A stretch of DNA of 40,474 nucleotides. It comes from an uncultured Lachnospiraceae bacterium (GTDB lineage Bacteria > Bacillota > Clostridia > Lachnospirales > Lachnospiraceae). Each line of letters begins with the position of its first letter. Within the stretch, counting starts at the first letter, position 1. The position numbers and the translations under genes were made by a program. This document shows, piece by piece, positions 16,401-40,103 of the stretch. The stretch lies in contig CACZIO010000026.1 of the NCBI GenBank assembly GCA_902781215.1, positions 1 through 40,474 on the forward strand, read 5' to 3'. The notes beneath the pieces are model-generated. The model had not been told where the DNA came from. It worked only from the letters and a program-made list of their open reading frames with translations, and did no database searches.

Positions 16401-16632
16401 CATGATCACCAACGGTCAGATCCAGATGATCGTCAACACCCCTATGGGCAAGGGCGCCCGCCACGACGACAGCTACCTGCGCAAGGCGGCCATCAAGGCC
16501 AAGATCCCCTATGTCACCACGGCGGCAGCGGGCCTCGCGGCGGCGGAGGGCATCAGCCACCTCAAGCGCAAGGGCAGAGGACTCATCCTGCCTCTGCAGG
16601 AGTGGCACGCCATGATCCGCGACAAGGACTGA
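13402..16632 (+). CDS. carB: carbamoyl-phosphate synthase large subunit (stand-alone copy)
   Basis: A 1076-residue protein of normal CarB length. The first ATP-grasp synthetase half starts VLIIGSGPIVIGQACEFDYSG, and the second repeats it at about residue 555 as IMILGGGPNRIGQGIEFDYC. The C-terminal regulatory domain has the MGS-like block NTPMGKGARHDD. It makes carbamoyl phosphate from bicarbonate, ATP and ammonia passed from CarA. No carA lies beside it; the only carA in the window is at 31334, next to a second carB (34218). Codon use is strongly biased to GCC, CTG, GTC and ATC, as in highly expressed genes. The ATG follows GAGGAGAG. Two copies in one genome often serve arginine and pyrimidine synthesis separately; which this serves is not visible. 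Confidence 0.95.
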   Translation: MPQRTDIHKVLIIGSGPIVIGQACEFDYSGTQACKALRSLGYEIVLVNSNPATIMTDPEMADRTYIEPLNVDRVTQIIKKERPDALLPNLGGQSGLNLCAELYKAGVLDEYNVKVIGVQADAIERGEDRIEFKKTMDMLGIEMARSEVSYSVEEALAIADRLGYPVVLRPAYTMGGAGGGLVYNKEELKTVCARGLKASLIGQVLVEESILGWEELELEVVRDKDNNMITVCFIENVDPVGVHTGDSFCTAPMLTIDEDLQKELQKQAYKIVEHIGVIGGTNVQFAHDPVSGRVIVIEINPRTSRSSALASKATGFPIALVSAKLASGLTLAELEDSRFGTLDKYVPTGDFVVVKFARWAFEKFKGVEDKLGTQMRAVGEVMSIGKTYKEAFQKAIRSLEKGRYGLGHVNNFDQLSLDELRNLLRSASSERHFIMYEALRKGMTVDEVFEITKVKHYFVEQMKELVEEEEALVKAFKGSVPSDEALLQAKKDGFSDHYLAQILEVSQDEIRHAREALGCTENWEGVHVSGTQDSAYYYSTYIGEDRNPINEDKPKIMILGGGPNRIGQGIEFDYCCVHAAQSLRKLGFETIIVNCNPETVSTDYDTSDKLYFEPLTLEDVLSIYKKEKPVGVIAQFGGQTPLNLASKLEKEGVKILGTSPAIIDLAEDRDHFRAMMDKLGIPMPEAGMATTVGEAQAIAAKIGYPVMVRPSYVLGGRGMEVVHDDEQMADYMAAAVGVTPDRPILIDRFLHNAMECEADAICDGTHAFVPAVMEHIELAGIHSGDSACIIPSRHISEKNLETIREYTRRIAEEMHVVGLMNMQYAIEDDIVFVLEANPRASRTVPLVSKVCGIRMVPLATEIITAELTGRKSPVPDLKEKDIPYYGVKEAVFPFNMFPEVDPILGPEMRSTGEVLGISRSTGGAFYKAQEAAKMILPLDGAVLITLSEPDRPYAPEIARRFREAGFKIYATEHTCHAIAQAGIPVERVNKNYEGRPNILDMITNGQIQMIVNTPMGKGARHDDSYLRKAAIKAKIPYVTTAAAGLAAAEGISHLKRKGRGLILPLQEWHAMIRDKD

Positions 16633-16861: not shown

Positions 16862-19552
16862 ATGACGAAGAAAAAGACAGAAATCAGCAGACATCGGGAA
16901 GAGAAAACAAGAACGGACAGGAACATGCAGTTCCTCCTGACGGCGGCCGGAATGATTCTGATCTTAGTGATCCTGGTCAGCATGTTCCGCCTTTTTTCAA
17001 TGAGGAACAGCGTCAGAATCCCGGATTCAGCCTTAAAAAAGGCGATCCAGGAGGAGCTGGATCTGGGGGACCGGGAGATCACAAAAAAAGATGCGGAAAG
17101 ACTCACGCAGCTGATCTACGACGGAAATACGCATGACGCGCAGATCGCGGACCTCACCGGTATTTCAGCCTTCCCGCATCTGCAGAAGCTGGACGTCCAT
17201 GGAAATGCGCAGATCAGGGACCTGCAGCCGCTGACAGGACTGTCGGAGCTCAGGGAACTGGACCTGCACGGGAATTTCCTGATCCGCGACCTGTCCCCTC
17301 TTGCCGGACTGGAGAACCTTGAGAGCCTTGATCTCGAAAGGGTATACGGGATCCGTGACATAAGCCCGCTGGCCAAGCTGCCGCATCTCCAAAAGCTCAA
17401 CCTCCTCAAGGACTATTTTGTGGAAGACCTGCAGACGGTGTCATCGATCCGGTCTCTGACGAGCCTGAATATAAGCGGACTGCGGCTCAGGGATATCGCC
17501 TTCCTGGAGCCCTTGTCGGAGCTGGAGGAGCTTCGGCTGCAAAACAATCAGATATCGGATCTCGGCGTCCTGGCCGGGATGCCGTCGCTGCGCGTATTGA
17601 ATCTGTACAACAACCAGGTCTCGGACATCACTCCACTGCGCGGCCTGACGCAGATGGAAGAGCTGGATCTCGGCTACAACATGGTCACGGAGATTTCATC
17701 GCTGGCGGAGATGGACCGGATGGAAAAACTGGTTCTGCGCGGGAATGCCGTCCCGGATATTGACGCGCTGAGAGAGATGAAAGGCCTGAAGGTTCTGGAT
17801 CTGGATGGCTGTGTGATCGAGGATATTACCCCGCTGACAGGCATGACGGAGATGGAGGAACTGTCTCTGTACGGCTCGCAGATCGTGGATCTCGCGCCGC
17901 TCGGGACCATGACCGGGATGAAGACACTGGAGCTGCGCGGCAATCCGGTCGACGATCTTTCCCCTCTTTCCGGCATGACAGAGCTGACATTCCTGAGTCT
18001 GTCCCAGACCGGAGTTTCTGACATCTCACCCCTTTGGAACATGACAAAGCTGGAACGGCTGGAGATGTGGGATAACCGGATCAGTGATATCAGCGCGCTC
18101 GCGGGTATGACAGAACTGAAACGGCTGGAGAGCAGCAACAATCAGATCCGTGATATCAGTGCGCTGGCTGATATGAAAAAGCTGGAATACCTGGAGCTGG
18201 ATGAAAACGAGGTGGAGGATATCGCACCTCTGCGCGGGGACACTGCGCTCCGCGTCCTCTACCTCAATCACAATGATGTAAAGGATATCACAGCTCTGGC
18301 CGGCATGGAGGATCTGTGGTGGCTGGAACTGACCGGAAATCCTGTCAGGGACCTGACAGCCCTGGATCAACTGGACGCGCTGGAGTTTGTGGAGACGGAG
18401 ACACTTTCCCCGGAGATCCGGAGTCTTTCCGCGGGCGGAGAAGAGGAGACATCCGGGGAGCAGCCGGCGGAGACGGAATCCGATGTAATCAGTGATGTGG
18501 AACCTGATCTGCTGATCACACCCATTTTCCCCGGGATGGACAGCGACGGAGATGCCGTACTGGTCCGATCGGAGGGAGAGAACCTCCTGATGGATACAGG
18601 GAATAATACGACTGATCAGACGGTGCAGGCGCTCAAGAACCTGGGGATCCGGGAACTGGACATCTATCTGTCTCACTGGCACGATGATCATTACGGCCAG
18701 ATCCTCAGGATCCTGGATGACGAAGATTTCCATGTGGGAAAGCTGTACCTGCCGGGGGCAGAGGTCTTCACCCGGCTGTATGATGAGAAGCAGTATTCCA
18801 TGATGCCCTGGTGGAAGGATTATCAGCGTCATTACTCCAACTACTGCAGGATCATGGAGGAGATTGAAGCCAGAGGAATTACCGTGGAATACCTGGAGCA
18901 GGGCTCGACCTTCCGGATCGGGAGTGCCCAGGCGGAAGTCCTCTACAAAAATGAGAATCCTGTCCTTGACAATTCACAGGAAAGGACCATCACCTACATC
19001 AACAATTCCAGTCTGGTGACCATGATCACCTCGAAGGAAGGGATCCGCTATCTGACCTGCGGAGACATCGAGGAGGAGACAGAACAGAAGATCCTGGATG
19101 AGGGGATCGATATCCGGTGCGACATTTTCAAGATGAACCACCACGCGTGCTGGACTTCCAACACAGAAGCTTTCCTGGATCAGGCGGCTCCCGCCTATGC
19201 TTTTTACAATATTGCGGAGAAAAGGTTTAACAAGCGAACCTATTTCTGCAAGGACACTGTCGTGCGGATGATGCGCAGATCCAACGTCTTCTCCAATTCC
19301 ATGAACGGCGATATGACCTTTGCCGTGCGCGGGAGCGTCATTGATGTGCAGGCACCGGCGCACACGAAAACGGAGACAGTTACCTATATGACGGAGGACG
19401 GAAGAGAAGAGACGCGAAGGCTCCGGTTCAATGAGTTCGCCCCGGAATATCTGCGGGCCTGTGCCCTTCCGGAGGGCGCTGTCTATTTATCCGGCGGCAG
19501 TGATGATCTGCAGATCGGAGACGATGTCCGGACAGAAAAGGATAAAAAATGA
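16862..19552 (+). CDS. secreted leucine-rich-repeat protein fused to a metallo-beta-lactamase-fold domain
   Basis: An 896-residue protein. A basic N-terminus and one membrane segment (about residues 24-44) place the rest outside the cell. About 18 tandem leucine-rich repeats of 22-23 residues (about 100-510) follow the internalin/SDS22 pattern, for example LEELRLQNNQISDLGVLAGM. After an acidic linker (about 520-545), a metallo-beta-lactamase-fold domain starts near residue 549: LLMDTGNN, H605-x-H607-x-D609-H610 in SHWHDDHYG, YLTCGDIEEE and a later NHHACW histidine, a ComEC/Rec2-like arrangement. All main metal ligands appear present, so it may be an active hydrolase; the substrate is unknown. 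A ribosome site GAGATAGG precedes the ATG. It has its own terminator and looks monocistronic. Confidence 0.85.
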   Translation: MTKKKTEISRHREEKTRTDRNMQFLLTAAGMILILVILVSMFRLFSMRNSVRIPDSALKKAIQEELDLGDREITKKDAERLTQLIYDGNTHDAQIADLTGISAFPHLQKLDVHGNAQIRDLQPLTGLSELRELDLHGNFLIRDLSPLAGLENLESLDLERVYGIRDISPLAKLPHLQKLNLLKDYFVEDLQTVSSIRSLTSLNISGLRLRDIAFLEPLSELEELRLQNNQISDLGVLAGMPSLRVLNLYNNQVSDITPLRGLTQMEELDLGYNMVTEISSLAEMDRMEKLVLRGNAVPDIDALREMKGLKVLDLDGCVIEDITPLTGMTEMEELSLYGSQIVDLAPLGTMTGMKTLELRGNPVDDLSPLSGMTELTFLSLSQTGVSDISPLWNMTKLERLEMWDNRISDISALAGMTELKRLESSNNQIRDISALADMKKLEYLELDENEVEDIAPLRGDTALRVLYLNHNDVKDITALAGMEDLWWLELTGNPVRDLTALDQLDALEFVETETLSPEIRSLSAGGEEETSGEQPAETESDVISDVEPDLLITPIFPGMDSDGDAVLVRSEGENLLMDTGNNTTDQTVQALKNLGIRELDIYLSHWHDDHYGQILRILDDEDFHVGKLYLPGAEVFTRLYDEKQYSMMPWWKDYQRHYSNYCRIMEEIEARGITVEYLEQGSTFRIGSAQAEVLYKNENPVLDNSQERTITYINNSSLVTMITSKEGIRYLTCGDIEEETEQKILDEGIDIRCDIFKMNHHACWTSNTEAFLDQAAPAYAFYNIAEKRFNKRTYFCKDTVVRMMRRSNVFSNSMNGDMTFAVRGSVIDVQAPAHTKTETVTYMTEDGREETRRLRFNEFAPEYLRACALPEGAVYLSGGSDDLQIGDDVRTEKDKK

Positions 19553-26458: not shown

Positions 26459-26553
26459 CCGGAAGGTGAACATTGACATAACACACTTCCGATCTGTGTA
26501 CCGGCTGCGGCGGCAGGACTTTAATGCCCGGAAGGTGAACGTTGACATCACAT
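26459..26553 (+). repeat. two-copy direct repeat duplicating a -35 region
   Basis: A 23-25 bp element starting CCGGAAGGTGAAC and continuing RTTGACATMACA occurs at 26459 and 26528, 69 bp apart. The second supplies the -35 box of the murT promoter. The first has TTGACA too, but only TGTGTA at the matching -10 position, so it is probably a dead or weak promoter copy, or the shared part is a protein binding site. Confidence 0.6.
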
Positions 26554-26569
26554 TTCCCGCGGGTATAAT
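26542..26569 (+). promoter_or_regulatory. consensus promoter of the murT-gatD unit
   Basis: TTGACA (26542-26547) and TATAAT (26564-26569) are both perfect and 16 nt apart. The expected start is about 26576, only 5 nt before the terminator stem. The asnB promoter at 29279 has the same boxes and spacing. Confidence 0.85.
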
Positions 26570-26577
26570 ATGTTTTC

Positions 26578-26639
26578 AGAGCAAAGGCGCTTGAAGAAAC
26601 GGACCGATCGTCCGTCTGTTCAGCGGCCTTTGCTTTTTT
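26578..26639 (+). promoter_or_regulatory. attenuator: leader terminator with AAAGGC hexaloop, murT-gatD copy
   Basis: GCAAAGGC (26581-26588) pairs with GCCTTTGC (26626-26633), TTGAA pairs with TTCAG/A further in, and an inner ACGGAC/GTCCGT stem (26599-26604, 26610-26615) caps it; TTTTTT follows to 26639. Inside the left arm, AGC (26580-26582) and GCT (26589-26591) can form a small hairpin with loop AAAGGC, which would exclude the terminator. The first 14 nt are identical to the asnB leader. Loop A1 and G4 match what ANTAR proteins recognise, but I see only one such hairpin. Read-through would reach murT 153 nt on. Confidence 0.72.
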
Positions 26640-26703
26640 GTTGTTCTGCGGTTTTGGCAGTCAGGTGAGTTTTCTGCGGCTCCTTACCGGCAGCTCACTC
26701 TTA

Positions 26704-26735
26704 CCGACCATGCCGCTCGCCAGAGTGGCAGCCTG
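26704..26735 (-). repeat. inverted copy of the 6974-7005 hairpin repeat
   Basis: Read on the minus strand, these 32 nt match 6974-7005 with three differences, including the TGCC(A/G)CTC-TGGC-GAGCGGCA hairpin. Another hairpin lies just before it (GTGAG at 26665 with CTCAC at 26695). It sits in the leader between the attenuator and murT. Confidence 0.7.
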
Positions 26736-26792
26736 GTGCACCGGAATTTTTGACAACATTTCATGACAGCTCCTGGTCATGGGGGAAAAACG

Positions 26793-28298
26793 ATGACAGA
26801 AATGAATGACCTGAAGAAAAATGATCCGTCTTTGCCAAATGATACGGTTTCAAAACAGGACCTGCCGTCGGCCTGTGCGCGGATGCCGGTCCGGACGGCG
26901 CTGGCTGTCGCCGCCTGCAGGCTGTCGCGCGCGGCCCTGCACGGTCTGGGACGGGGCGGAACGGCGCTTCCGGGCAGACTGGCCATGCGTTTTCGCGGGG
27001 ATATCCTGTCCGTGACCTCCCGGGGCGTGGAGACGGTCCTGGTCACGGGAACAAATGGAAAAACGACGACAGCCAGGATGCTGGCGCATGCCATGGAGAA
27101 GGCGGGCAGACCTGTGATCTGCAACCGGGCCGGCGCCAATCTTCTGTCGGGGGTGACAGCGGAATTTGCGGCGGCGGCAGACCTTTGCGGCCGGCCCCGC
27201 GGAAAGCAGTACGCTGTCATTGAGTGCGACGAAGGCGCCCTGCACCAGGCGGCGCCGCTCGTGCAGCCCCGCGTGATCGTCGTGACCAACCTGTTCCGGG
27301 ACCAGCTGGACCGCTATGGCGAGGTCATGCATACACGCGAAGCGATCCTGGAAGGAATCCGGAGCGTGCCCGGCGCAGTGCTCTGCCTGAACGCGGATGA
27401 TTCCCTCACCGCGTCGATCGCCCTGGAGGTCCCGAATCCGGTGGTCTGGTACGGCATCGAGCAAAATGCCGTTTGCAGGAAAGACGGACCGGAGGACCAG
27501 GCTGCGGAGAAGTTCAGCGGGATCAGCGACGCGCGCTGCTGTATCCGCTGCGGGGCGGAATATACCTACCGCTATCGAACCTATGCCCATCTGGGAGGGT
27601 ATTGCTGTCCCGCCTGCGGCTTTGCCCGCCCCGTCCCGGATGTGGTGGTGACCGCCGTCGATGAAAGCGGCCCCGCGGGCTCCCGGGTGCGTATGCGTAT
27701 GACGGCGCAGTCCGCCGACTTTTCTGTCCGGATCGCCCTGCCGGCCCTCTACAATGTCTACAACGCCGCAGCTGCCGTGAGCGCCTATACAGCCGTCGGG
27801 CTCCCGCGCACTGAGATCCTGGCCGGGCTGGCGGACGTGCGGACCGGCTTCGGCCGCATGGAGCGGTTCGAGATCAATGGCGTCTCCATACAGATGATCC
27901 TGGTCAAAAATCCCGCCGGCTGTGGTCAGGCGCTGGATTATCTGTGCTCCCTCCGGGAAGCCTGCCGGGTGGTGCTGTGTCTCAATGACCGGGACGCGGA
28001 CGGCCACGACATCTCCTGGATCTGGGATGTCGACTATGAACAGCTGGCGGGACAGGACAATATCCGGGGCTTTTATGTCTGGGGAGACCGGGCAGAGGAC
28101 ATGCAGCTCCGGCTCAAGTACGCCGGGATCGACCAGGACAGGATCCGCCTGATCCCGGAAAAGGAAAAGCGGCGCCTGCTGGCACGGATCAGCCGCGGCA
28201 GGACGCCGGTCCATATACTGACCAACTACACCGCCATGCTGTCCCTGCGGGATCTGCTGAGCAGGGCCGCCGGAAAGGGTGCATTCTGGAAAGGATAA
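26793..28298 (+). CDS. murT: lipid II isoglutaminyl synthase, Mur-ligase subunit MurT
   Basis: A 501-residue Mur-ligase-like protein. The ATP site is VTGTNGKTTTARML; a four-cysteine zinc ribbon (C250-x2-C253 ... C272-x2-C275) is inserted in the central domain, as in known MurT. The C-terminal DUF1727 region carries ILVKNPAGCGQALDYL and DGHDISWIWDVDYE. With GatD it amidates the alpha-carboxyl of D-glutamate in lipid II to D-isoglutamine, using glutamine and ATP at the inner face of the membrane. I chose ATG 26793, preceded by GGGGGAAAA; ATG 26763 adds ten residues without a ribosome site. gatD follows 110 bp on. The leader holds the shared attenuator. Confidence 0.93.
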   Translation: MTEMNDLKKNDPSLPNDTVSKQDLPSACARMPVRTALAVAACRLSRAALHGLGRGGTALPGRLAMRFRGDILSVTSRGVETVLVTGTNGKTTTARMLAHAMEKAGRPVICNRAGANLLSGVTAEFAAAADLCGRPRGKQYAVIECDEGALHQAAPLVQPRVIVVTNLFRDQLDRYGEVMHTREAILEGIRSVPGAVLCLNADDSLTASIALEVPNPVVWYGIEQNAVCRKDGPEDQAAEKFSGISDARCCIRCGAEYTYRYRTYAHLGGYCCPACGFARPVPDVVVTAVDESGPAGSRVRMRMTAQSADFSVRIALPALYNVYNAAAAVSAYTAVGLPRTEILAGLADVRTGFGRMERFEINGVSIQMILVKNPAGCGQALDYLCSLREACRVVLCLNDRDADGHDISWIWDVDYEQLAGQDNIRGFYVWGDRAEDMQLRLKYAGIDQDRIRLIPEKEKRRLLARISRGRTPVHILTNYTAMLSLRDLLSRAAGKGAFWKG

Positions 28299-28407
28299 AA
28301 GGTGTATGTTGATTGGATGCTGCCCGGCGAATCACCGGCCGCAGCGAAGAAAGATATAAGACAGGAGATAACGACGCAGGGGAGAAAAGAGAAAAAAGGA
28401 ACAGACC

Positions 28408-29136
28408 ATGGAATTGAAAATATGTCATCTCTATCCGGATGTGCTCAATCTCTACGGGGACCGGGGAAACATCCTCTGTATGCAAAAACGTCTGGAATGG
28501 CGCGGCATTTCCTGCCGGGTGGATCAGGTCCGGCTGGGGGAGCGGAAGAGCCTGGCCGGCTATGATCTTTTTTTTATCGGAGGAGGACAGGATTTTGATC
28601 AGGAGATCCTCCTGGAGGACCTGCGCAGGCACAAGGGGCCGGAGATACGGGCCGCTCTGGCTGACGGCGGAACCTTCCTGTGCATCTGCGGCGGCTACCA
28701 GATGATGGGACACGATTATGAGACCGCCGACGGCGCAAAATGCGAGTTCCTGGGCGCGATCGATTTCCATACGGCCGGCGGGGCCAAGCGGATGATCGGC
28801 AACTACGCCTACCGGCTGGATGAGGAGGACGGGGCCGGCACGGTCGTCGGCTTCGAGAACCACAGCGGCCGCACCTGGCTGGGCAGCGGCGTCCGTCCGC
28901 TGGGCAGGGTCCTGAAGGGGTACGGCAACAACGGAGAGGACGGGACCGAGGGCGCCCGGTTTGAAAATGCCTTCTGCACCTACAGCCACGGCCCTGTTCT
29001 GCCCAAAAACCCCGCATTCGCGGACCTGCTGATCAGGACCGCGCTTTTGAGAAGGTATGGCTCCTGTGAGCTCGATCCTCTGGAGGACGGGTTTGAACAG
29101 CTGGCCCATGACCGCGTCCTGAGACGGATCCGGTGA
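28408..29136 (+). CDS. gatD: lipid II isoglutaminyl synthase, glutaminase subunit GatD
   Basis: A 242-residue class I (triad) glutamine amidotransferase of the CobB/CobQ-like type. It starts LKICHLYPDVLNLYGDRGNI, as in GatD proteins; the nucleophile Cys94 is in CICGGYQMMG and the catalytic histidine is about His194 in YSHGPVLPKNP. These positions agree well with known GatD. It releases ammonia from glutamine and passes it to MurT for lipid II amidation. AAGGAACAG lies just before the ATG. The residue order and the partner upstream make this assignment firm. Confidence 0.94.
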   Translation: MELKICHLYPDVLNLYGDRGNILCMQKRLEWRGISCRVDQVRLGERKSLAGYDLFFIGGGQDFDQEILLEDLRRHKGPEIRAALADGGTFLCICGGYQMMGHDYETADGAKCEFLGAIDFHTAGGAKRMIGNYAYRLDEEDGAGTVVGFENHSGRTWLGSGVRPLGRVLKGYGNNGEDGTEGARFENAFCTYSHGPVLPKNPAFADLLIRTALLRRYGSCELDPLEDGFEQLAHDRVLRRIR

Positions 29137-29186
29137 CGCGTAACCGGTGTGCCAGTGCCGCCTGTAGATCAGTGTGTGAAGATCGG

Positions 29187-29206
29187 GCTGCGCGCAGCAT
29201 TTTTTT
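29187..29206 (+). terminator. weak possible terminator after gatD
   Basis: GCTG (29187-29190) and CAGC (29195-29198) around CGCG are followed by ATTTTTTT (to 29206). The stem is only 4 bp, so this is a modest call; it would separate murT-gatD from the asnB promoter. Confidence 0.45.
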
Positions 29207-29261
29207 AAATGGAGTTCACGAAATACAGGACAGATACCAAGATAAAAAGAAAAATGTATCA

Positions 29262-29271
29262 TTGTATACAA
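29262..29271. promoter_or_regulatory. palindrome TTGTATACAA upstream of the asnB promoter
   Basis: A perfect 10-bp palindrome ends 7 bp before the -35 box. It fits the GT-n-AC layout of GntR-family operators. No GntR gene is in the window, so the binder is unknown. Confidence 0.4.
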
Positions 29272-29278
29272 ATTTGGA

Positions 29279-29306
29279 TTGACAAGAAAAAGCTCCTGAG
29301 TATAAT
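29279..29306 (+). promoter_or_regulatory. consensus promoter of the asnB-carA-pyrG-carB-guaA unit
   Basis: TTGACA (29279-29284) and TATAAT (29301-29306) are both perfect and 16 nt apart, exactly as at the murT promoter. The expected start is about 29312, just before the terminator stem. Confidence 0.87.
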
Positions 29307-29316
29307 AAGACAACGA

Positions 29317-29370
29317 AAGCAAAGGCGCTTGAGGCGACGGCGGAAGCCGTCTCTTCAGGCGCCTTTTTTT
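29317..29370 (+). promoter_or_regulatory. attenuator: leader terminator with AAAGGC hexaloop, asnB copy
   Basis: AAAGGCGCTTGA (29321-29332) pairs with TCAGGCGCCTTT (29355-29366); an inner GACGGC/GCCGTC stem with GGAA loop caps it, and the T-run ends at 29370. AAGC (29317-29320) and GCTT (29327-29330) can instead form a small hairpin with loop AAAGGC, excluding the terminator. The inner stem differs from the murT copy at several bases but stays paired, which argues for a selected RNA structure. The asnB ATG is 88 nt past the T-run. Confidence 0.78.
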
Positions 29371-29392
29371 GTATGATTACTTGTTTTATCGC

Positions 29393-29434
29393 ATAAGCGA
29401 TCATACATAAGCGATCATACATAAGTGATCATCT
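29393..29434 (+). repeat. three tandem 14-bp repeats in the asnB leader
   Basis: ATAAGCGATCATAC occurs at 29393 and 29407 exactly, and at 29421 with three changes. GTATGAT (29371-29377), right after the terminator, is complementary to ATCATAC in the repeats, so alternative hairpins can form. The repeats end 24 bp before the ATG. Confidence 0.75.
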
Positions 29435-29458
29435 GTGATACAGAAAGGCAGGTAAAAT

Positions 29459-31135
29459 ATGTGCTCAATACTTGCATACTGCAGCGGGCAGGCGGATCCG
29501 GCGGTCGTGGCGGAAATGCTGGCCAGGACCATCTCGAGGGGACCGGATGACAGCCGTCTGATGGAGACCGGCCATGGGTACCTGGGCTTCAACCGGCTCT
29601 CGATCATGGGGCTCACGCCGGAAGGCATGCAGCCCTTCGTTATGGACGGCAATGCTGTCGTGTGCAACGGAGAGCTGTACGGCTTTCGGAAGATGCGGGA
29701 GAGCCTGAAGAAGCGCGGCTATTCTTTCCACAGCGATTCGGACTGCGAGATCCTGCTCCCCATGTACCGGGAATTCGGGCCGGAGATGTTCCGGCTCCTG
29801 GACGCGGAGTTCGCCCTGGTCCTGTATGACGCCCGGGCCGGGCAGTACATCGCCGCGCGCGACCCGGTGGGGATCCGTCCCCTCTATTACGGGCAGGATG
29901 AGAAGGGATGTTATGTCTTTTCCTCCGAGCCCAAAAGCCTGGTTGGAATCTGTGCCCGGATCAGGCCTTTCCCGCCCGGCCACTATGCCGTGATCGATGC
30001 GGGGCCCGCAGCTTCAGAATCGGCGGGACAGTCAAGAAAGGGACGGGGAAAAGAGCATGGATGTCTGTCGCAGGATCGCGGCCAACAGATGGTCCTGCAT
30101 GAGTACAGGCGGATCTGGCAGGCAGACCACGTGAGTGGGGACGACATGGGCCGGGTCGCTCAGAACATCCACGACAGGCTCCTGGCCGGCATCGAGAAGC
30201 GCCTGGACGCCGATGCGCCCGTGGGATTCCTTCTGTCCGGAGGCCTCGATTCCTCGCTGGTCTGCGGCGCGGCGGCCAGGCTCCTGGACAGGCCCCTGCA
30301 GACCTTCGCGATCGGGATGGATGTCGATGCCATCGATCTCAAATATGCCCGCAAGGTGGCTGAATATATCGGCAGCGACCACCACGAGGTGATCATCACC
30401 AGGGAGGACGTCCTGGATGCCCTGGATCCGGTTATCGCGGCCCTGGGGACCTGGGACATCACGACCATCCGCGCCTCGATCGGCATGTACCTCGTCTGCA
30501 AATGGATTCATGAGAACACGGACATCCGGGTCATCCTGACCGGAGAGATCTCCGACGAGATCTTCGGCTACAAGTACACGGATTTCGCCCCGGACGCGGC
30601 TGCTTTCCAGGCGGAATCGGAAAAAAGGATCCGGGAGATCCACATGTACGACGTCCTCCGCGCGGACCGCTGTATCAGTGTCCACTCCCTGGAGGCCCGC
30701 GTGCCCTTCGGGGATCTGGACTTTCTGTCCTACTGCATGTCCATCGACCCGGAGATGAAGCTCAACCGCTATGGGATCGGCAAATATCTCCTGCGCCACG
30801 CTTTTGAACAGGACGGACTCATCCCGCGCGAGATCCTGATGCGGGAGAAGGCCGCCTTCTCCGATGCGGTCGGCCATTCCCTGCGCCTGGACATCATCGA
30901 TTACGCACAGTCTCTCTATACAGATGAGGAATACGAGACGAAGCGGCGCCGGTACAGGCACGGCATGCCCTTTACAAAGGAATCTCTTTTGTTCCGCGAG
31001 ATCTTTGAAAAATACTATCCCGGCCAGGCGGAGATGATCACCGACTTCTGGATGCCCAACAGGGACTGGGAGGGCTGCGACGTCAACGACCCCTCCGCCA
31101 GTGTCCTGTCCAACTACGGCGCCAGCGGCGTCTGA
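29459..31135 (+). CDS. asnB: asparagine synthase (glutamine-hydrolysing)
   Basis: A 558-residue class II amidotransferase. The N-terminal nucleophile Cys2 (MCSILAY) starts the glutaminase domain, with SRGPDD, GFNRLSIMG and CNGELYG. The synthetase domain has the pyrophosphate loop LLSGGLDSSLV and EISDEIFGYKY. It makes asparagine from aspartate, glutamine and ATP. Compared with E. coli AsnB there is an insertion of about 25 polar residues between the domains (about residues 180-205, rich in Ala, Ser, Gln and Gly). AAAGGCAGG precedes the ATG. It is the first gene of a unit running to guaA and lies downstream of the attenuator and repeats. Confidence 0.94.
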   Translation: MCSILAYCSGQADPAVVAEMLARTISRGPDDSRLMETGHGYLGFNRLSIMGLTPEGMQPFVMDGNAVVCNGELYGFRKMRESLKKRGYSFHSDSDCEILLPMYREFGPEMFRLLDAEFALVLYDARAGQYIAARDPVGIRPLYYGQDEKGCYVFSSEPKSLVGICARIRPFPPGHYAVIDAGPAASESAGQSRKGRGKEHGCLSQDRGQQMVLHEYRRIWQADHVSGDDMGRVAQNIHDRLLAGIEKRLDADAPVGFLLSGGLDSSLVCGAAARLLDRPLQTFAIGMDVDAIDLKYARKVAEYIGSDHHEVIITREDVLDALDPVIAALGTWDITTIRASIGMYLVCKWIHENTDIRVILTGEISDEIFGYKYTDFAPDAAAFQAESEKRIREIHMYDVLRADRCISVHSLEARVPFGDLDFLSYCMSIDPEMKLNRYGIGKYLLRHAFEQDGLIPREILMREKAAFSDAVGHSLRLDIIDYAQSLYTDEEYETKRRRYRHGMPFTKESLLFREIFEKYYPGQAEMITDFWMPNRDWEGCDVNDPSASVLSNYGASGV

Positions 31136-31168
31136 CCAGGCTGTACGGGACCAGAGGGTGGGACCGGG

Positions 31169-31316
31169 GGGACGGTTCTATGGCCCCATTGGTCTGGGCG
31201 TGAGGAACCGTAGAACCGTCCCTGCGGTCCTTGCCGGGAAGTGGAACCGGAGAACCGTTCCTGCGGTCCTTGCCGGGAAGTGGAGCCGGAGAACCGTCCC
31301 TGTGGTCCCTCGGGAC
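31169..31316 (+). repeat. 39-bp tandem repeats and a 12-bp inverted repeat between asnB and carA
   Basis: Units starting GAACCGTYCCTGYGGTCC begin at 31213, 31252 and 31291 (the last is partial), with a 39-bp step. GGGACGGTTCTA (31169-31180) is a perfect inverted copy of TAGAACCGTCCC (31211-31222), so a hairpin with a 30-nt loop can form. The repeats keep a frame open (RRTVPAVLAGKW), but no ribosome site supports translation. The GAACCGTC core also occurs in the repeat at 19697. Confidence 0.8.
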
Positions 31317-31333
31317 GATGAGGTAAATGACAG

Positions 31334-34079
<2,746 letters not shown>

Positions 34080-34217
34080 CGCCCGGAGACATCGCGCAGA
34101 AGATGCCGGAAAATCCGTTCCCCAATGACACCCCATGCCATTGTAAAAAAGGGATCCTGAATTCGTCCCGGATGACATATGCGTTCGGAAAGGCAGATAA
34201 ACCATAAGGAGGCATTC

Positions 34218-37200
34218 ATGCCAAAGAGAGAAGACATCCACAAGGTCCTGGTCATCGGCTCCGGCCCCATCGTGATCGGACAGGCGGCGGAGTTCGACTA
34301 CGCCGGCACTCAGGCCTGTCTGGCGCTGAAGGAGGAGGGCTGTGAGGTCATCCTGTGCAATTCCAATCCGGCGACGATCATGACGGACACATCCATCGCG
34401 GACAAGGTCTATATGGAACCGTTGACCCTGGAGTATATCGCCAGGATCATCCGGTACGAGCGCCCTGATGCCATCCTGCCGGGGATCGGCGGCCAGACAG
34501 GCCTGAATCTGGCCATTCAGCTGGAGAAAAAGGGCGTGCTGGCCGAGTGCCGGACGCAGCTTCTGGGCACGCGAAGCAGGTCCATTGAGCAGGCGGAGGA
34601 CCGCCGGCTCTTCAAGGAGCTGTGCGAGCGCCTGGGCGAGCCTGTTCTTCCCTCTGAGATTGCCGGATCCATGGAGGAAGGAGTGGATGCCGTGAGGCGG
34701 ATCGGCTTCCCGGTCGTCCTGCGTCCCGCCTTTACCCTGGGCGGCACGGGCGGCGGCTTCGCGGAAAATGAAGAGGAGTTTGAGACCCTGATGAAGCACG
34801 CCCTGGAGTTGTCCCCGGTCCGCCAGGTCCTGGTCGAAAAGAGCATCCGCGGCTTCAAGGAGATCGAATATGAGGTCATGCGGGACAAAAACGACACGGC
34901 GGTCACCATCTGCAACATGGAGAACCTGGACCCGGTCGGCATCCACACCGGGGATTCCATCGTCGTCTGCCCCTCCCAGACCCTCACCAACAGGGAATAC
35001 CACATGCTCAGGGACAGCGCCCTCAGGGTCATCCGGGCATTGGAGATCGAGGGAGGCTGCAACGTCCAGTTCGCGCTCGACCCGCATTCCTTCCAGTATT
35101 ACCTGATCGAGGTCAATCCCCGTGTCTCCCGGTCCTCCGCCCTGGCCTCCAAGGCCAGCGGCTATCCCATTGCCCGCGTGTCCGCCAAGATCGGCATCGG
35201 CATGACCCTGGACGAGATCATGCTGGCCAACACACTCGCCTGTTTTGAGCCCGCTCTGGACTACGTGGTCACCAAAATGCCCCGCTTTGCCTTCGACAAG
35301 TATCCCCGCACGGACCTCGTGACAGACTCGCAAGGAAAGACACCGGCTGCCCCGTTCCGGAACGGCACGGACAACACCCTGTCCACGCAGATGAAGGCGA
35401 CAGGCGAGGTCATGAGCATCGGCAGGACCTTTGAGGAGAGCCTGCTCAAGGCCGTCCGGTCTCTGGAGACCGGCCACCTCCACCTCTATGACCCGAAATT
35501 CGACGGCCTGGATGACCGCGGCCTGCTGGAATATATCCGGGAGGGCAGGGATGACCGCATTTTCGCCATCGCCCAGATCGTCCGCAACTGCATCGCGAGG
35601 GCGGAGAGTGAGGACCGGGCATGGCAGGGGGCAGCACAGCCCACTGATCCTGTCCCCGCAGAAGCGCTGGATAAAACAGGTCGGGAGATCTGCCGGATCA
35701 CGGGGATCGACGCCTTTTTTGTCCGCAAGATCCGCAATATTATTCTGATGGAAAAAAAGCTGCAGACAGGGCCGGGCGATCTGGACCTGCTGCGCGAAGC
35801 CAAAAGGACGGGCTTTTCCGACCATATCATCGGAAAATACTGGGACATGACAGAGGAGCAGGTCTTTGCCCTGCGCCGGGACCTGGGGATCGTCCCTGTC
35901 TACAAGATGATCGACACATGCGCCTCCGAATTTGACAGCTATGTGCCGTATTTTTACTCGACCTATGAGGAGGAGAATGAGGCCTTCCCGGCGGGAGGCG
36001 CGGCAGAGGAGAGAGTGCGGTTTCTGAGGCTCCGCGGCGGTGTGACGGAGGAAGCCGCGGGAGATGCCGGGGAGGACGCCGGCATTAGCAAGATCATCGT
36101 TCTGGGCTCCGGACCCATCCGGATCGGCCAGGGTGTCGAATTTGACTACTCCACCGTCCACGCCGTGCAGACCCTGCAGAAGGCCGGCTACGAGGCCATC
36201 ATCATCAACAACAACCCGGAGACGGTCTCCACGGATTACACCTGCTCCGACAAGCTCTATTTCGAGCCCCTCTGCGTCGAGGACGTCATGAATGTGATCG
36301 CCATGGAAGAGCCGGAGGGCGTCATCGCCACCCTGGGCGGCCAGACGGCGGTCAACCTGGCGGAGCCCCTGCACGCGCGCGGGGTCAGGATCATCGGAAC
36401 GGACTGTGACGCCATCGAGCGGGCGGAAAACCGGGATACCTTTGAGAAGCTCCTCGAGGAGCTGGAGATCCCCCAGCCCAGGGGGCGGGCCGTCACCTCG
36501 GTCGAAGAGGGCGTCCGGGAGGCGGCAGACATCGGATATCCTGTTCTCGTGCGGCCCAGCTTTGTCCTGGGCGGACGCGCCATGCAGATCGTGGGCAAGG
36601 AGGAGGAACTGCGGGAATATCTGAAGACGGCTGTGGAGATCGACGTGGACAAGCCCGTTCTCGTGGACAAATACATCCGCGGCAGGGAAGTCGAGATCGA
36701 CGCGGTCTGTGACGGAGACCAGGTCTTTGTCCCCGGCATCATGGAGCTCGTCGAGCGCACCGGCGTCCACTCGGGGGACTCCATCAGCGTCTATCCGCCC
36801 TGCAGTCTCTCCGACCAGGTCAAATCGACCATCCTGGACTATGCCGGGAGACTGGGGATGGGCATCGGCATCCGGGGTCTCTTCAACATCCAGTTCATCG
36901 TGGACCAGGAGGACCGGGTCTTCATCATCGAGGTCAACCCCCGCTCCTCCCGCACGGTCCCCTTCCTCTCCAAGGCGACCGGTTACAGCCTGGCTGACAT
37001 GGCGACCCTGGTCAGCCTGGGCATCTCCCTGCGGGACCAGGGGATCACGCCGGAAACCGCCGGCTGCCGCGATCAGGGGCCGCATGCCTGTACAGCTGTA
37101 TATCCGAAAGAAAAAGAGCGCTATTACGTCAAGGTACCCGCATTCTCCTTTTCCAAGCTGCTGGGCATGGACGCCTACCTGTCCCCGGAGATGAAATCGA

Positions 37201-37670
37201 CGGGAGAAGCCATCGGCTATGACAGGAAACTCCACCGGGCCATGTACAAGGCCCTGATCGCCTCCGGCGTGCGCCTGCGCAGCTACGGCACCGTTGTCGT
37301 CAGCGTCGCGGATGAGGACAAGATCGAGACTATTCCCCTGATCAGGCGCTTCTATGACATGGGCTTCAACATCGAGGCGACCACGCTCACGGGTGAATAT
37401 CTCAAAAAGGCAGGAATCCACACCCGCATCCGCCGCAAGCCCAGCGAGGGAAGCAGTGAGATCCTGGATTCCATCCGCACCGGCTTTGTCAGCTACGTGA
37501 TCAATACCAGGGCCATCCTGTCCGGTGTCCACTACGGGGACGGCGTCCGGATCCGCGCCTGCGCCACACAGAACAATGTCCCTATGCTGACATCTCTCGA
37601 CACCGTCCGCATGCTGCTGGATGTTCTGGAGGAAATGACCATGGGAATCTCCACGATCGATGCGGTGTGA
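34218..37670 (+). CDS. carB: carbamoyl-phosphate synthase large subunit (second, longer copy)
   Basis: A 1150-residue CarB, about 75 residues longer than the copy at 13402. Both synthetase halves are present ([21 protein letters not shown] at the start and [21 protein letters not shown] at about residue 630), and the C-terminal regulatory domain ends [19 protein letters not shown]. The extra length is in insertions at about nt 35310-35375, 35605-35690 and 35975-36085, in low-complexity or poorly conserved stretches. The C-terminal domain differs clearly from the other copy (NTRAILSG in place of NTPMGKGA), which suggests different allosteric control. AAGGAGG precedes the ATG; an in-frame ATG at 34179 lacks one. 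It is in the same unit as carA. Confidence 0.95.
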   Translation: [1150 protein letters not shown]

Positions 37671-37734
37671 AGCTGCATCACCGTCTGGCAGCTGCGAAGC
37701 AAGCGCTCCCTCTGCGAATGTATGCCTTGGCAAA

Positions 37735-37770
37735 GCCTGCGCAATGATGTGCTGCGGCATGGATGGAAAG
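37735..37770 (+). repeat. copy of the 8385-type repeat upstream of guaA
   Basis: GCCTGCGCA (37735-37743), five variable bases, GTGCT, one variable base and CGGCATGG, then GGAAAG closely match 8385-8420 in order and spacing. Nearby GCTGCGAAGC and TGCCTTGGCA can form small stems. The 207-bp gap between carB and guaA shows no T-run terminator. Confidence 0.55.
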
Positions 37771-37877
37771 CTGCAAACCGCAGGCCGGAGATTGACAGAT
37801 GTGCGCAAAGACTGGTAAATTTGCACTATATCCCTTTCATCAAGTATGTCTGTGAACAGGAGGTCATCACTGCAGGT

Positions 37878-39599
37878 ATGGGAAGAGAGCTAGTCATCAT
37901 CCTGGATTTCGGCGGACAGTATAAACAGCTGATCGCCCGCCGTGTCCGCGAATGCAATGTATATTGCGAGATCCACCCGCATACACTTTCGATTGAAAAA
38001 ATCAAGGCCATGGACCCGAAGGGAATCATCCTGACCGGCGGTCCCGCCAGCGTCTACGATGAGAAATCCCCCACATGTTCACCGGAGCTCTTCGCGCTCG
38101 ACATCCCGGTCCTGGGGATCTGTTACGGATCCCAGCTCATGGCCTACCGGGCAGGGGCGCCTATGTCTGCCGCAGCCGCTGACAGTGCGGCTGAAAATGA
38201 CGGACCGGCGGCAGACAGGTTCGGCTCCAATCCGGATGCCGTGAAGACAGCTCCCGTCAGCGAATACGGCAGGACAGAGGTCATCATCGACGCACCGGAT
38301 TCCATGCTGTTCAGGGATGTCGTTCTCTCCGGCGGTCAGAGTGGACCGAGCGGACAAGACATAGATCACGGACAGGATGAGAATAAAACCGACGTACAAG
38401 CCGGATCCACCATCTGCTGGATGAGCCACACGGACTATATCGCAAATATTCCGGACGGCTTCCGGATCACGGCCCACACGGCCCACTGCCCGGTGGCGGC
38501 CATGGAGAACCCTGAGAGGAAGCTCTATGCCGTCCAGTTCCACCCGGAGGTGGTCCACACACCCGAGGGCACGAAGATGCTGCGCAGCTTTGTCATGGAT
38601 GTCTGCGGCTGCAGGGGCGACTGGGTCATGTCCTCCTTCGCGGAGCAGACCATTCAGGAACTGCGCGACAAGATCGGGGATCAGCACGTCCTGCTGGGCC
38701 TGTCCGGCGGCGTCGATTCCACCGTCGCGGCCGCCCTCCTGTCCAGAGCCATCGGCGACCAGCTCCACTGTGTCTTTGTCGATCACGGTCTCATGCGCAA
38801 GAACGAGGGCGACGAGGTGGAGCAGATCTTCGGACCGGACGGGGACTTCGACCTGCACTTCATCCGTGTCAACGCCCAGGAGAAGTTTTACCGGCGTCTC
38901 ATCGGCCAGACTGACCCCGAGACCAAGCGCAAGATCATCGGGGAGGAATTCCCCCGCGTCTTCGGGGATGAGGCCAGAAAACTCAGGGGCAGGGTCCGCT
39001 ACCTGGCCCAGGGCACCATCTATCCGGACGTCGTCGAAAGCGGCGACGGCAAGACCGGCGACGTCATCAAATCCCACCACAATGTGGGCGGACTCCCCAT
39101 TGAGCTGGTCCGCGAACTGGGCTTTGACGAGACGCCTATCGAGCCCCTCCGCATGCTCTTCAAGGACGAGGTCCGCCGCGTGGGCCTCGAGCTGGGCATC
39201 CCCCGCGACCTGGTCTACCGCCAGCCCTTCCCGGGGCCCGGCCTGGCCGTCCGCATCGTCGGCGAGATCACGCCCTACAAGGTCCAGATCGTCCAGGAGG
39301 CCGACTACATCTTCCGTGAGGAGCTGCACAAGGCCGGCGCAGACGAGGGACTGGGTCAGTACTTCGCCGCCCTCTCCAACATGCACAGCGTCGGCGTCAT
39401 GGGAGACCACCGGACCTATGGCCTGGCCGTTGTCCTCCGCGCCGTCATCACCAGCGACTTCATGACCGCCGAGGCCGCCAACATCCCCTGGGAGGTCCTC
39501 CAGACCACCATGAACCGCATCATCAACGAGGTCGACGGCGTCAACCGCGTCCTCTACGACATCACCAGCAAACCGCCCGGAACCATAGAGCTGGAATAA
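37878..39599 (+). CDS. guaA: GMP synthase (glutamine-hydrolysing)
   Basis: A 573-residue GMP synthase, converting XMP to GMP with glutamine and ATP. The class I glutaminase domain starts [21 protein letters not shown], with nucleophile Cys82 in GICYGSQLM and histidine in FHPEVVHT. The ATP-pyrophosphatase domain has [12 protein letters not shown], and the dimer domain ends KPPGTIELE. Two low-complexity insertions of about 25-30 residues interrupt the glutaminase domain (nt 38154-38265 and 38330-38405), so it is longer than E. coli GuaA (525). I chose ATG 37878, with GGAGG 14 nt upstream; the frame stays open back to 37722 but that part has no family similarity. Last gene of the amidotransferase unit. 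Confidence 0.96.
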
Positions 39600-39606
39600 T
39601 GTACAA

Positions 39607-39652
39607 AAGTCCGAGAATCCTTATTTATAAGGGCTTTCGGACTTCTTTTTTT
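39607..39652 (+). terminator. intrinsic terminator after guaA
   Basis: AAGTCCGA (39607-39614) pairs with TCGGACTT (39637-39644), with an inner CCTTA/TAAGG stem, followed by a T-run to 39652. It lies 8 bp after the guaA stop and ends the unit that starts at 29301. Confidence 0.88.
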
Positions 39653-39988: not shown

Positions 39989-40103
39989 CGAAAAATATAA
40001 AACAAATACTGCGAAAAACATAAAATAAAAGAGACGAAAAGCGCAAAACATAAACCGCGAAAAGTATAAAACAAACCTTGCGAAAATGACAAAATCAAGA
40101 TAA
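39989..40103. repeat. five tandem 23-bp repeats upstream of the ATPase gene
   Basis: Units start at 39989, 40012, 40035, 40058 and 40081, exactly 23 bp apart. The consensus is CGAAAA, four variable bases, AAAAYA, a few A, then variable. The period is about two turns of B-DNA and not a multiple of three, so it is DNA-level structure and not a coding repeat. There are no spacers, so it is not CRISPR. It may be a set of operators or a bent A-tract element. Confidence 0.85.

Follow-up and report, generated by a model that had tools for sequence, protein, structure and literature searches.

The glutamine-amide genes and their two units

We analyzed contig 26 (CACZIO010000026.1) of the 3.33-Mb draft genome of an uncultured Lachnospiraceae bacterium (132 contigs, 94.67% complete), a stretch of 40,474 nucleotides (nt) referred to here as the window. 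It carries an island of genes for enzymes that take the amide nitrogen of glutamine and, at the head of each of the two units of this island, a short leader in which a mini-hairpin overlaps an intrinsic terminator. A preliminary description of the sequence had proposed that five amidotransferase systems belonging to different pathways stand here side by side under matching control. Scanning with Pfam and NCBIfam placed the gene set as described, in two units and in the order murT-gatD, asnB, carA, pyrG, carB, and guaA, with some starts refined; that pyrG lies between carA and carB had not been spelled out. The genes and further features of the island are as follows.

26763..28298, forward strand: murT, lipid II isoglutaminyl synthase, Mur-ligase subunit (PF08353 above cutoff; NF045635 best, below its cutoff)
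28408..29136, forward strand: gatD, glutamine amidotransferase subunit of MurT-GatD (PF07685 above cutoff; NF045636 best, below its cutoff)
29459..31135, forward strand: asnB, glutamine-hydrolyzing asparagine synthetase (NF006949 and TIGR01536 above cutoff)
31334..32446, forward strand: carA, carbamoyl-phosphate synthase small (glutaminase) subunit (TIGR01368 above cutoff)
32463..34079, forward strand: pyrG, CTP synthase (NF003792 and TIGR00337 above cutoff; start set from the sequence)
34218..37670, forward strand: carB, carbamoyl-phosphate synthase large subunit (NF003671 and TIGR01369 above cutoff; start set from the sequence)
37792..37821, forward strand: promoter-like site possibly giving guaA its own start (TTGACA-18-TAAATT, 10/12, TG-extended; within chance expectation)
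37878..39599, forward strand: guaA, GMP synthase (NF000848 and TIGR00884 above cutoff)
39608..39652, forward strand: terminator-like stem (AGTCCGA/TCGGACT) with T-run, closing unit 2 (read directly in the sequence; absent from the terminator scan list)

Curated equivalog cutoffs were passed by AsnB, CarA, PyrG, CarB, and GuaA, while for MurT and GatD their own families were the best match yet fell under the strict NCBIfam cutoffs. A function of asnB as a diaminopimelate-amidating enzyme was considered and rejected, its best assignment being the asparagine synthase B equivalog. The four intergenic gaps of unit 2 include gaps of 198, 138, and 207 nt, and none of the four holds a run of at least 4 T. 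Within the genes of unit 2, five runs of 5 to 6 T precede the T-run at 39646, and two weak forward-strand terminator-like sites with broken T tails were found at 32618 (pyrG) and 36704 (carB). The earlier statement that unit 2 lacks an internal T-run terminator before the end of guaA is therefore right for the gaps and nearly so overall, given the T-runs in genes and the two weak sites. We infer that guaA shares a transcript with the rest of unit 2, and it could have its own promoter. A 39-base tandem repeat (2.7 copies) occupies positions 31204-31308 of the asnB-carA gap.

Promoters and leaders of the two units

Each unit opens with a promoter and a leader, the latter scored with a covariance model (R1) that is described below.

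26542..26569, forward strand: sigma-A promoter of unit 1 (TTGACA-16-TATAAT, 12/12 consensus)
26580..26640, forward strand: leader 1, AGC[AAAGGC]GCU mini-hairpin (26580-26591) overlapping an intrinsic terminator (R1 34.5 bits, E 5.6e-5)
29279..29306, forward strand: sigma-A promoter of unit 2 (TTGACA-16-TATAAT, 12/12 consensus)
29318..29370, forward strand: leader 2, AGC[AAAGGC]GCU mini-hairpin (29318-29329) overlapping an intrinsic terminator (R1 44.7 bits, E 1.1e-7)

These promoters were the only perfect ones among 13 promoter-like sites in the scanned stretch (4.4 in shuffles). An identical 15-base sequence, AGCAAAGGCGCTTGA, opens both leaders, at 26580 and 29318, 10 to 11 nt past the promoter. 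Allowing up to 3 mismatches, a search with AGCAAAGGCGCTTGA yielded 4 matches, where 1.29 would be expected by chance and as many as 4 were seen in 2 of 100 shuffles; both exact matches were the two leaders, and the other two were the opposite arms of the same hairpins. With perfect sigma-A promoters and an identical leader start, the matching control proposed for the two units took a more specific form than had been noted. The unit 1 promoter region is duplicated (26459-26485 and 26530-26556; CCGGAAGGTGAAC-TTGACAT), the upstream copy having a -35 box and no clear -10 box, and between leader 2 and asnB (29392-29432) lies a 14-base repeat, CATAAGCGATCATA, in 2.9 copies.

Two mutually exclusive folds are predicted for each leader. 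The terminators had folding z scores of -4.1 (leader 1) and -6.6 (leader 2), with none of 200 shuffles equally stable. Predicted energies of the terminator and of the mini-hairpin state were -30.2 and -14.6 kcal/mol in leader 1 (a cost of 15.6) and -36.8 and -19.3 kcal/mol in leader 2 (a cost of 17.5); at such a cost, the terminator should win unless the mini-hairpin is held by something.

The leader elsewhere in this genome and in relatives

The pattern TATAAT-N(2-18)-GCAAAGGCGC was found in 19 of 250 genomes, some matches being spurious. Because this exact pattern was too strict, we used R1, for which 15 of the 22 pattern loci (including four of this genome) were taken; L019, L023, L026, L027, and L031 were left out for want of a terminator by the terms of the script, and L022 and L030 for want of AGC/GCU. 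A pattern search of this genome that tolerated up to 2 mismatches returned 13 matches (three exact) versus 8 in a reversed control. With R1, five leaders were found in this draft genome (E ≤5.6e-5), the next match being an opposite-strand echo (E 3.1). The five precede murT-gatD, asnB-carA-pyrG-carB-guaA, glnA-ANTAR, purF, and amtB; the gene behind glnA is the sole ANTAR gene of the genome and is followed by an aminotransferase gene. The preliminary description had named independent internal promoters with unlinked expression as speaking against a common signal; instead, both units share a leader that also stands before glnA-ANTAR, purF, and amtB and, by R1, nowhere else in the genome. The remaining amidotransferase genes of this genome (PF00117: C8 and C9; class II: C16, C2, C11, and C102) had no match to R1. 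On contig 3, a type III glutamine synthetase (GS III) gene followed by a glutamate synthase gene starts 29 bases from the contig end, so that any leader of it would be off the contig.

Two side observations concern these sites. The short contig 122 of G000 (L073) carries an apparent asnB end, a carA 72% identical to that of the window, and a carB-like frame; a second copy of the island and a contaminant from a near relative are two possibilities for its carA. A PPDK_N-domain protein of about 840 to 900 amino acids is encoded after purF in this genome (L071:1958-4687) and behind its own leader in L092 (1-2514), with a look-alike after carB in the nearest relative (L157:12711-15398), and is a candidate for an uncharacterized member of a nitrogen regulon.

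R1 matched 132 of 250 genomes of the family at E 0.05. In a sample of 245 genomes from the class, 53 matched at E 0.001, and 47 of these lie outside the family; at class level, downstream genes were examined for the returned loci. Strong family matches (at least 30 bits) were retrieved by rank, ignoring gene identity, and amounted to 119 distinct leaders, 118 of them with a downstream gene call. By BLAST grouping, with at least one member per group checked by Pfam, 93 of the 118 precede genes of nitrogen assimilation or of glutamine-amide use, five of the 93 being those of this genome. The genes behind the 93 were GS III (30), amtB (27), purF (9), gltB (9), asnB (7), pyrG (4), carA (3), and carB, glnA, gdhA, and murT (1 each). 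In G002, four leaders over 16 kb precede purF, gltB, amtB, and pyrG, with a GS III gene in between; in the nearest relative (L157), leaders stand ahead of asnB, carB, and amtB, with a fourth further along. A leader ahead of murT was seen only in this genome, and murT-gatD of L157 lacks one. Tandem pairs of leaders before one gene were seen in L084 (3478 and 3534), L079 (14438 and 14380), and L066 (1501 and 1549) and possibly represent two-stage attenuation. Six leaders stand before circularly permuted ATP-grasp genes at five loci of relatives (L066, L048, L051, L132, and L112; one by Pfam).

Leaders of this kind might also act without a protein, either by nucleotide sensing through slippage at the start site or as a metabolite-binding RNA. 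In the attenuation of Bacillus pyrG, a hairpin forms at the very 5' end and slippage takes place at the start site; here, too, the hairpin lies at the extreme 5' end, and pyrG and carA are among the first genes. We give such an attenuator only the slimmest chance: at the curated threshold the window showed no Rfam family, GS III and amtB genes, and not CTP or purine genes, head the regulon, no fixed initiating base could be discerned by eye, and the alternative fold consists of three pairs only, which calls for a protein.

An ANTAR gene linked to glutamine synthetase

Of the 219 genomes that have an ANTAR gene, 80 carried leaders at E 1e-4, versus 1 of the 31 that have none (P = 3.8e-5, Fisher); at E 0.05, the numbers were 122 of 219 and 10 of 31 (P = 0.012). 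Since the genomes are related, both P values overstate the association. The regulator carries a C-terminal ANTAR domain (PF03861, 49.1 bits). Ten of 13 regulator genes adjoin a glnA gene, and two more are separated from one by a single gene. A profile of the 13 regulators matched Rv1626, EutV, AmiR, and NasR. In a structural model of one of them (mean predicted local distance difference test score [pLDDT] 84, predicted template modeling score [pTM] 0.63), the four best fold matches were Rv1626 and EutV (TM-scores 0.58-0.60), and AmiR was among the best seven.

Conservation of the hairpin

Loop positions A1, A2, G4, and G5 are invariant in 119 of 119 leaders, whereas positions 3 and 6 vary (14 and 7 changes, respectively), and the same invariance was found in 105 leaders outside the reach of the seed pattern. 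The three-base stem pairs in 117 of 119 leaders, and all 119 have a six-base loop with A1 and G4; the mini-hairpin overlaps an intrinsic terminator, as in the dual-hexaloop class of ANTAR target RNAs (PMC3369931). In an alignment that was itself fitted to the model, 97.8% of terminator cells were paired versus 93.4% in shuffles, with 39 compensating both-side changes versus 5.5. A -10 box ending 7 to 15 nt before the hairpin was present in 75 of 118 leaders versus 13.9 in shuffles (61 of 104 versus 12.0 without seed-type leaders), this range having been fixed after the leaders had been inspected.

Because R1 was derived from exact-pattern matches, a further test was based on a protein and not on the motif. 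For the 30 best protein matches to glnN (GS III), one of which was lost to a contig end, 16 of the 29 upstream regions contained an AANG[GA]N hexaloop hairpin within a terminator, compared with a mean of 0.05 in 60 dinucleotide shuffles and 0 to 1 for each of six decoy loops; the opposite strand gave 4, as near-palindromes would. The stems at these loci include AGC/GCU, GGC/GUC, GAC/GUC, and AAC/GUU, and when the pairing requirement was dropped, 28 candidate hexamers were found at 18 of the 29 loci. When the flanks of these candidates were redealt, the observed pairing was reached in 2 of 2000 deals for the loop-closing pair and in 32 of 2000 for the third pair.

The inverted repeat could instead be a DNA operator just past the start site, bound by a nitrogen repressor such as GlnR or TnrA, which are DNA-binding proteins. 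The element is indeed a partial palindrome, found within a few bases of every predicted start. At individual stem pairs, however, as many as 48 of 116 leaders have G-U in place of G-C or A-U, which points to an RNA element, as does the T-run after the stem, and presence of the element tracks that of an RNA-binding ANTAR gene; we therefore see very little prospect of an operator being the explanation.

Gene grouping at carA loci

The comparison of gene neighborhoods covered the best 80 of 562 confirmed carA loci in named genomes, many of them short; the nearest CarA in this collection is that of Lachnospiraceae bacterium UBA4380 (72% identical). A same-strand gene for another glutamine amidotransferase was present at 49 of the 80 loci, two or more such genes at 36, and three or more at 19; for the 40 loci of at least 15 kb, these numbers were 28, 22, and 16. 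The synteny in relatives that the preliminary description had asked for was thus found, the gene set being conserved. By BLAST labels, the same-strand neighbors of carA among the 80 were purF (36), pyrG (31), asnB (23), GS III (16), guaA (16), and amtB (15). In L166, the order is GS III, amtB, asnB, guaA, pyrG, purF, carA, carB, dapF, and an aminotransferase gene. Some clusters in relatives also contain glmS, purA, purB, purC, and NAD synthase genes, and near carB, commonly after it, dapF was seen at 24 and a class I/II aminotransferase of the dapL kind at 31 of the 80 loci (L157-L236). Since relatives add purA, purB, and purC, which use aspartate nitrogen, and dapF with an aminotransferase, the shared glutamine donor is the core and not the whole of the rule.

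At E 0.05, R1 gave 22 matches over the 80 loci, several being weak or lying on the other strand; E 1e-4 was reached at just five loci (L157, L216, L182, L206, and L177), which suggests either that the gene cluster is wider than leader control or that R1 missed other stems. This low count is among the points in favor of another account, in which pathway decides the grouping of the genes (nucleotide synthesis, asnB and murT being mere neighbors) and the leaders are ordinary terminators or stabilizing 5' hairpins with no regulatory role. Furthermore, carAB-pyrG belongs to pyrimidine and guaA to purine synthesis, and in relatives purA, purB, and purC are found in the cluster as well. Against such grouping, however, relatives of pyrB, pyrC, pyrD, and pyrF never shared a locus with the amidotransferase genes (amidotransferase-type, 49 of the 80 loci; pyr-type, 10; both, 0; neither, 21; representatives checked by Pfam), and none of the four was present among the window genes scanned. 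An absence of regulation, for its part, agrees poorly with the same leader standing before glnA-ANTAR, amtB, gltB, and purF and with loop bases being fixed where a terminator alone would allow covariation. We consider this account very unlikely. Grouping by nitrogen donor under one signal, as the preliminary description had suggested, is supported by both the regulatory anatomy and the comparison.

Proposed mechanism

Judged from sequence, the island likely belongs to a nitrogen regulon under the control of transcription antitermination of the ANTAR type, and in our best reading the ANTAR antiterminator encoded with glnA would set one regulon. RNA polymerase would start at a strong sigma-A promoter, and AGC-AAAGGC-GCU would be made within a few bases. 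By default, AAAGGCGCU would pair with the downstream arm to form the intrinsic terminator, stopping transcription within about 60 nt. An active ANTAR protein, encoded beside glnA, would keep AGC[AAAGGC]GCU folded into a mini-hairpin whose hexaloop has A1 and G4; with the terminator thereby blocked, polymerase would enter murT-gatD and asnB-carA-pyrG-carB-guaA, and the same readthrough would occur at glnA-ANTAR, purF, and amtB. With amtB and glnA under one and the same switch, low nitrogen or low glutamine most likely corresponds to the active state, and the signal, presumably glutamine or ammonia, would turn the regulon on when nitrogen is short. Probably, one nitrogen signal sets the island, glnA, and amtB together.

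Several results weigh against this reading. The frozen 5' arm is partly a matter of ascertainment, as R1 was built from exact 10-base pattern matches, and evidence for covariation in the mini-stem is significant only in part, since, with the flanks at the glnN loci redealt, the pairing of its second pair was reached in 500 of 2000 deals. At 11 of the 29 glnN loci, a search for the hexaloop failed even when flank pairing was not required. The genes behind the other 25 of the 118 strong leaders are of different or unknown kind (six circularly permuted ATP-grasp genes, two ABC ATPase genes, two genes for family-3 solute-binding proteins, two class-III aminotransferase genes, and 13 single genes). 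Of the 31 genomes that lack an ANTAR gene, ten matched R1 at E 0.05, nine of them weakly and one (G202) at 3.3e-7. An upstream P1 hairpin (linker of 5 to 12 nt) was no more frequent in leaders than in shuffles (6 of 118 versus 6.3; without seed-type leaders, 6 of 104 versus 5.3). The ANTAR protein of this genome alone matched no solved structure by sequence at E 0.01.

A relaxed ANTAR search of the ten leader-matching genomes without an ANTAR gene returned only matches below the cutoff; G202 was rejected as an overlooked carrier, its match at a contig end being unconvincing as an ANTAR domain. By eye, no displaced P1 hexaloop was evident in the upper terminator stem of the leader sequences. 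All 13 aligned regulators lack an aspartate at the receiver position that is phosphorylated in Rv1626 and EutV (seven carry N there, five carry G, and that of this genome carries F), which raises the question of what signal such regulators sense.

Control of this kind would explain the pathway-mixed neighborhood, in that the nitrogen donor, and not the product, can organize genes and their control in Clostridia. It yields a concrete candidate regulon (glnA or GS III, amtB, gltB, purF, asnB, carAB, and pyrG and, in this genome, murT-gatD and guaA), with the short RNA element as a handle for finding it. MurT-GatD under the same switch would link lipid II amidation, a modification of the cell wall, to nitrogen supply. 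More speculatively, and with rather less than an even chance of being correct, Clostridia may possess a one-hairpin ANTAR regulon of the glutamine economy, in which glutamine status would be read directly by an ANTAR protein with a pseudo-receiver whose gene lies with that for glutamine synthetase. Sensing might pass through the synthetase in its feedback-inhibited form or through a partner resembling PII, and the uptake of ammonium, the synthesis of glutamine, and the major consumers of the glutamine amide would be set together. If so, it would be an RNA-level counterpart of GlnR/TnrA in Bacillus, and the P1 "recruitment" hairpin would be dispensable where the antitermination hairpin is made first.

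Other features of the window

A second, lone carB (13402-16632; 1076 amino acids) shares 41% identity with CarB of the island and has a TATAAT box upstream and no leader match, so that two kinds of carbamoyl-phosphate synthase large subunit occur within one window. Positions 16862-19552 encode an 896-amino-acid protein that combines numerous leucine-rich repeats with a metallo-beta-lactamase-like domain. A 23-base A-rich repeat (39989-40086; 4.3 imperfect copies) lies past the terminator of unit 2.

Comparison with known systems

The 13-base eut motif, which we take to be AGCAANGRRGCUY, fits the leaders of the window except at its ninth letter. A search of titles, abstract openings, and selected passages, with subscription journals mostly outside it, returned no account of an amidotransferase regulon or of one-hairpin ANTAR leaders. 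The closest system is that of EutV and the eut leaders of Enterococcus faecalis, which, in the relevant passages of PMC3369931 and PMC8934654, share with the leaders described here an A1/G4 hexaloop mini-hairpin that overlaps an intrinsic terminator and a regulator of the ANTAR family. The passages of PMC3369931 on eut targets mention a 13-nucleotide sequence and state that EutV needs both the P1 and P2 hairpins, 5 to 12 nt apart. Unlike those leaders, the ones found here lack P1 and place the hairpin a few bases from the predicted start, the receiver of the regulator lacks the phosphorylated aspartate, and the targets are genes of nitrogen assimilation and amidotransferases. By sequence, the system thus appears to work like ANTAR antitermination, yet it fails two defining features of the EutV class, P1 and the receiver aspartate. 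In its passages on hexaloop binding, a 2022 structure paper (PMC8934654) argues that the EutV dimer is unable to contact both hexaloops at once, reports that the P1 and P2 hexaloops are each bound in isolation, and assigns to P1 the part of a recruitment hairpin; leaders without P1 would fit that view and offer a natural test of the role of P1 in antitermination of the EutV type.

AmiR of Pseudomonas aeruginosa is likewise an ANTAR protein with a pseudo-receiver and, in the passage of PMC8934654 devoted to it, is controlled by a partner rather than by phosphorylation. It regulates the amidase operon (according to a PDB title) through its partner AmiC, whereas the regulator gene here adjoins glnA. 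In Clostridia, glnA-linked antiterminators have been proposed to act in nitrogen control (C. acetobutylicum nitR and C. thermocellum Clo1313_2030, in the pertinent part of PMC4676874); they resemble the present case in that an antiterminator or ANTAR gene is tied to glutamine synthetase genes and differ in that this part describes glutamine synthetase-glutamate synthase genes and antisense RNA, and not a leader family or an amidotransferase regulon. The ANTAR regulons predicted for Desulfotomaculum and Pelobacter, as presented in the corresponding section of PMC3369931, also comprise several operons per genome, nitrogen genes, and overlap with a terminator; they differ in that a two-hairpin model was used and in that glutamate synthase is the only amidotransferase operon named in that section.

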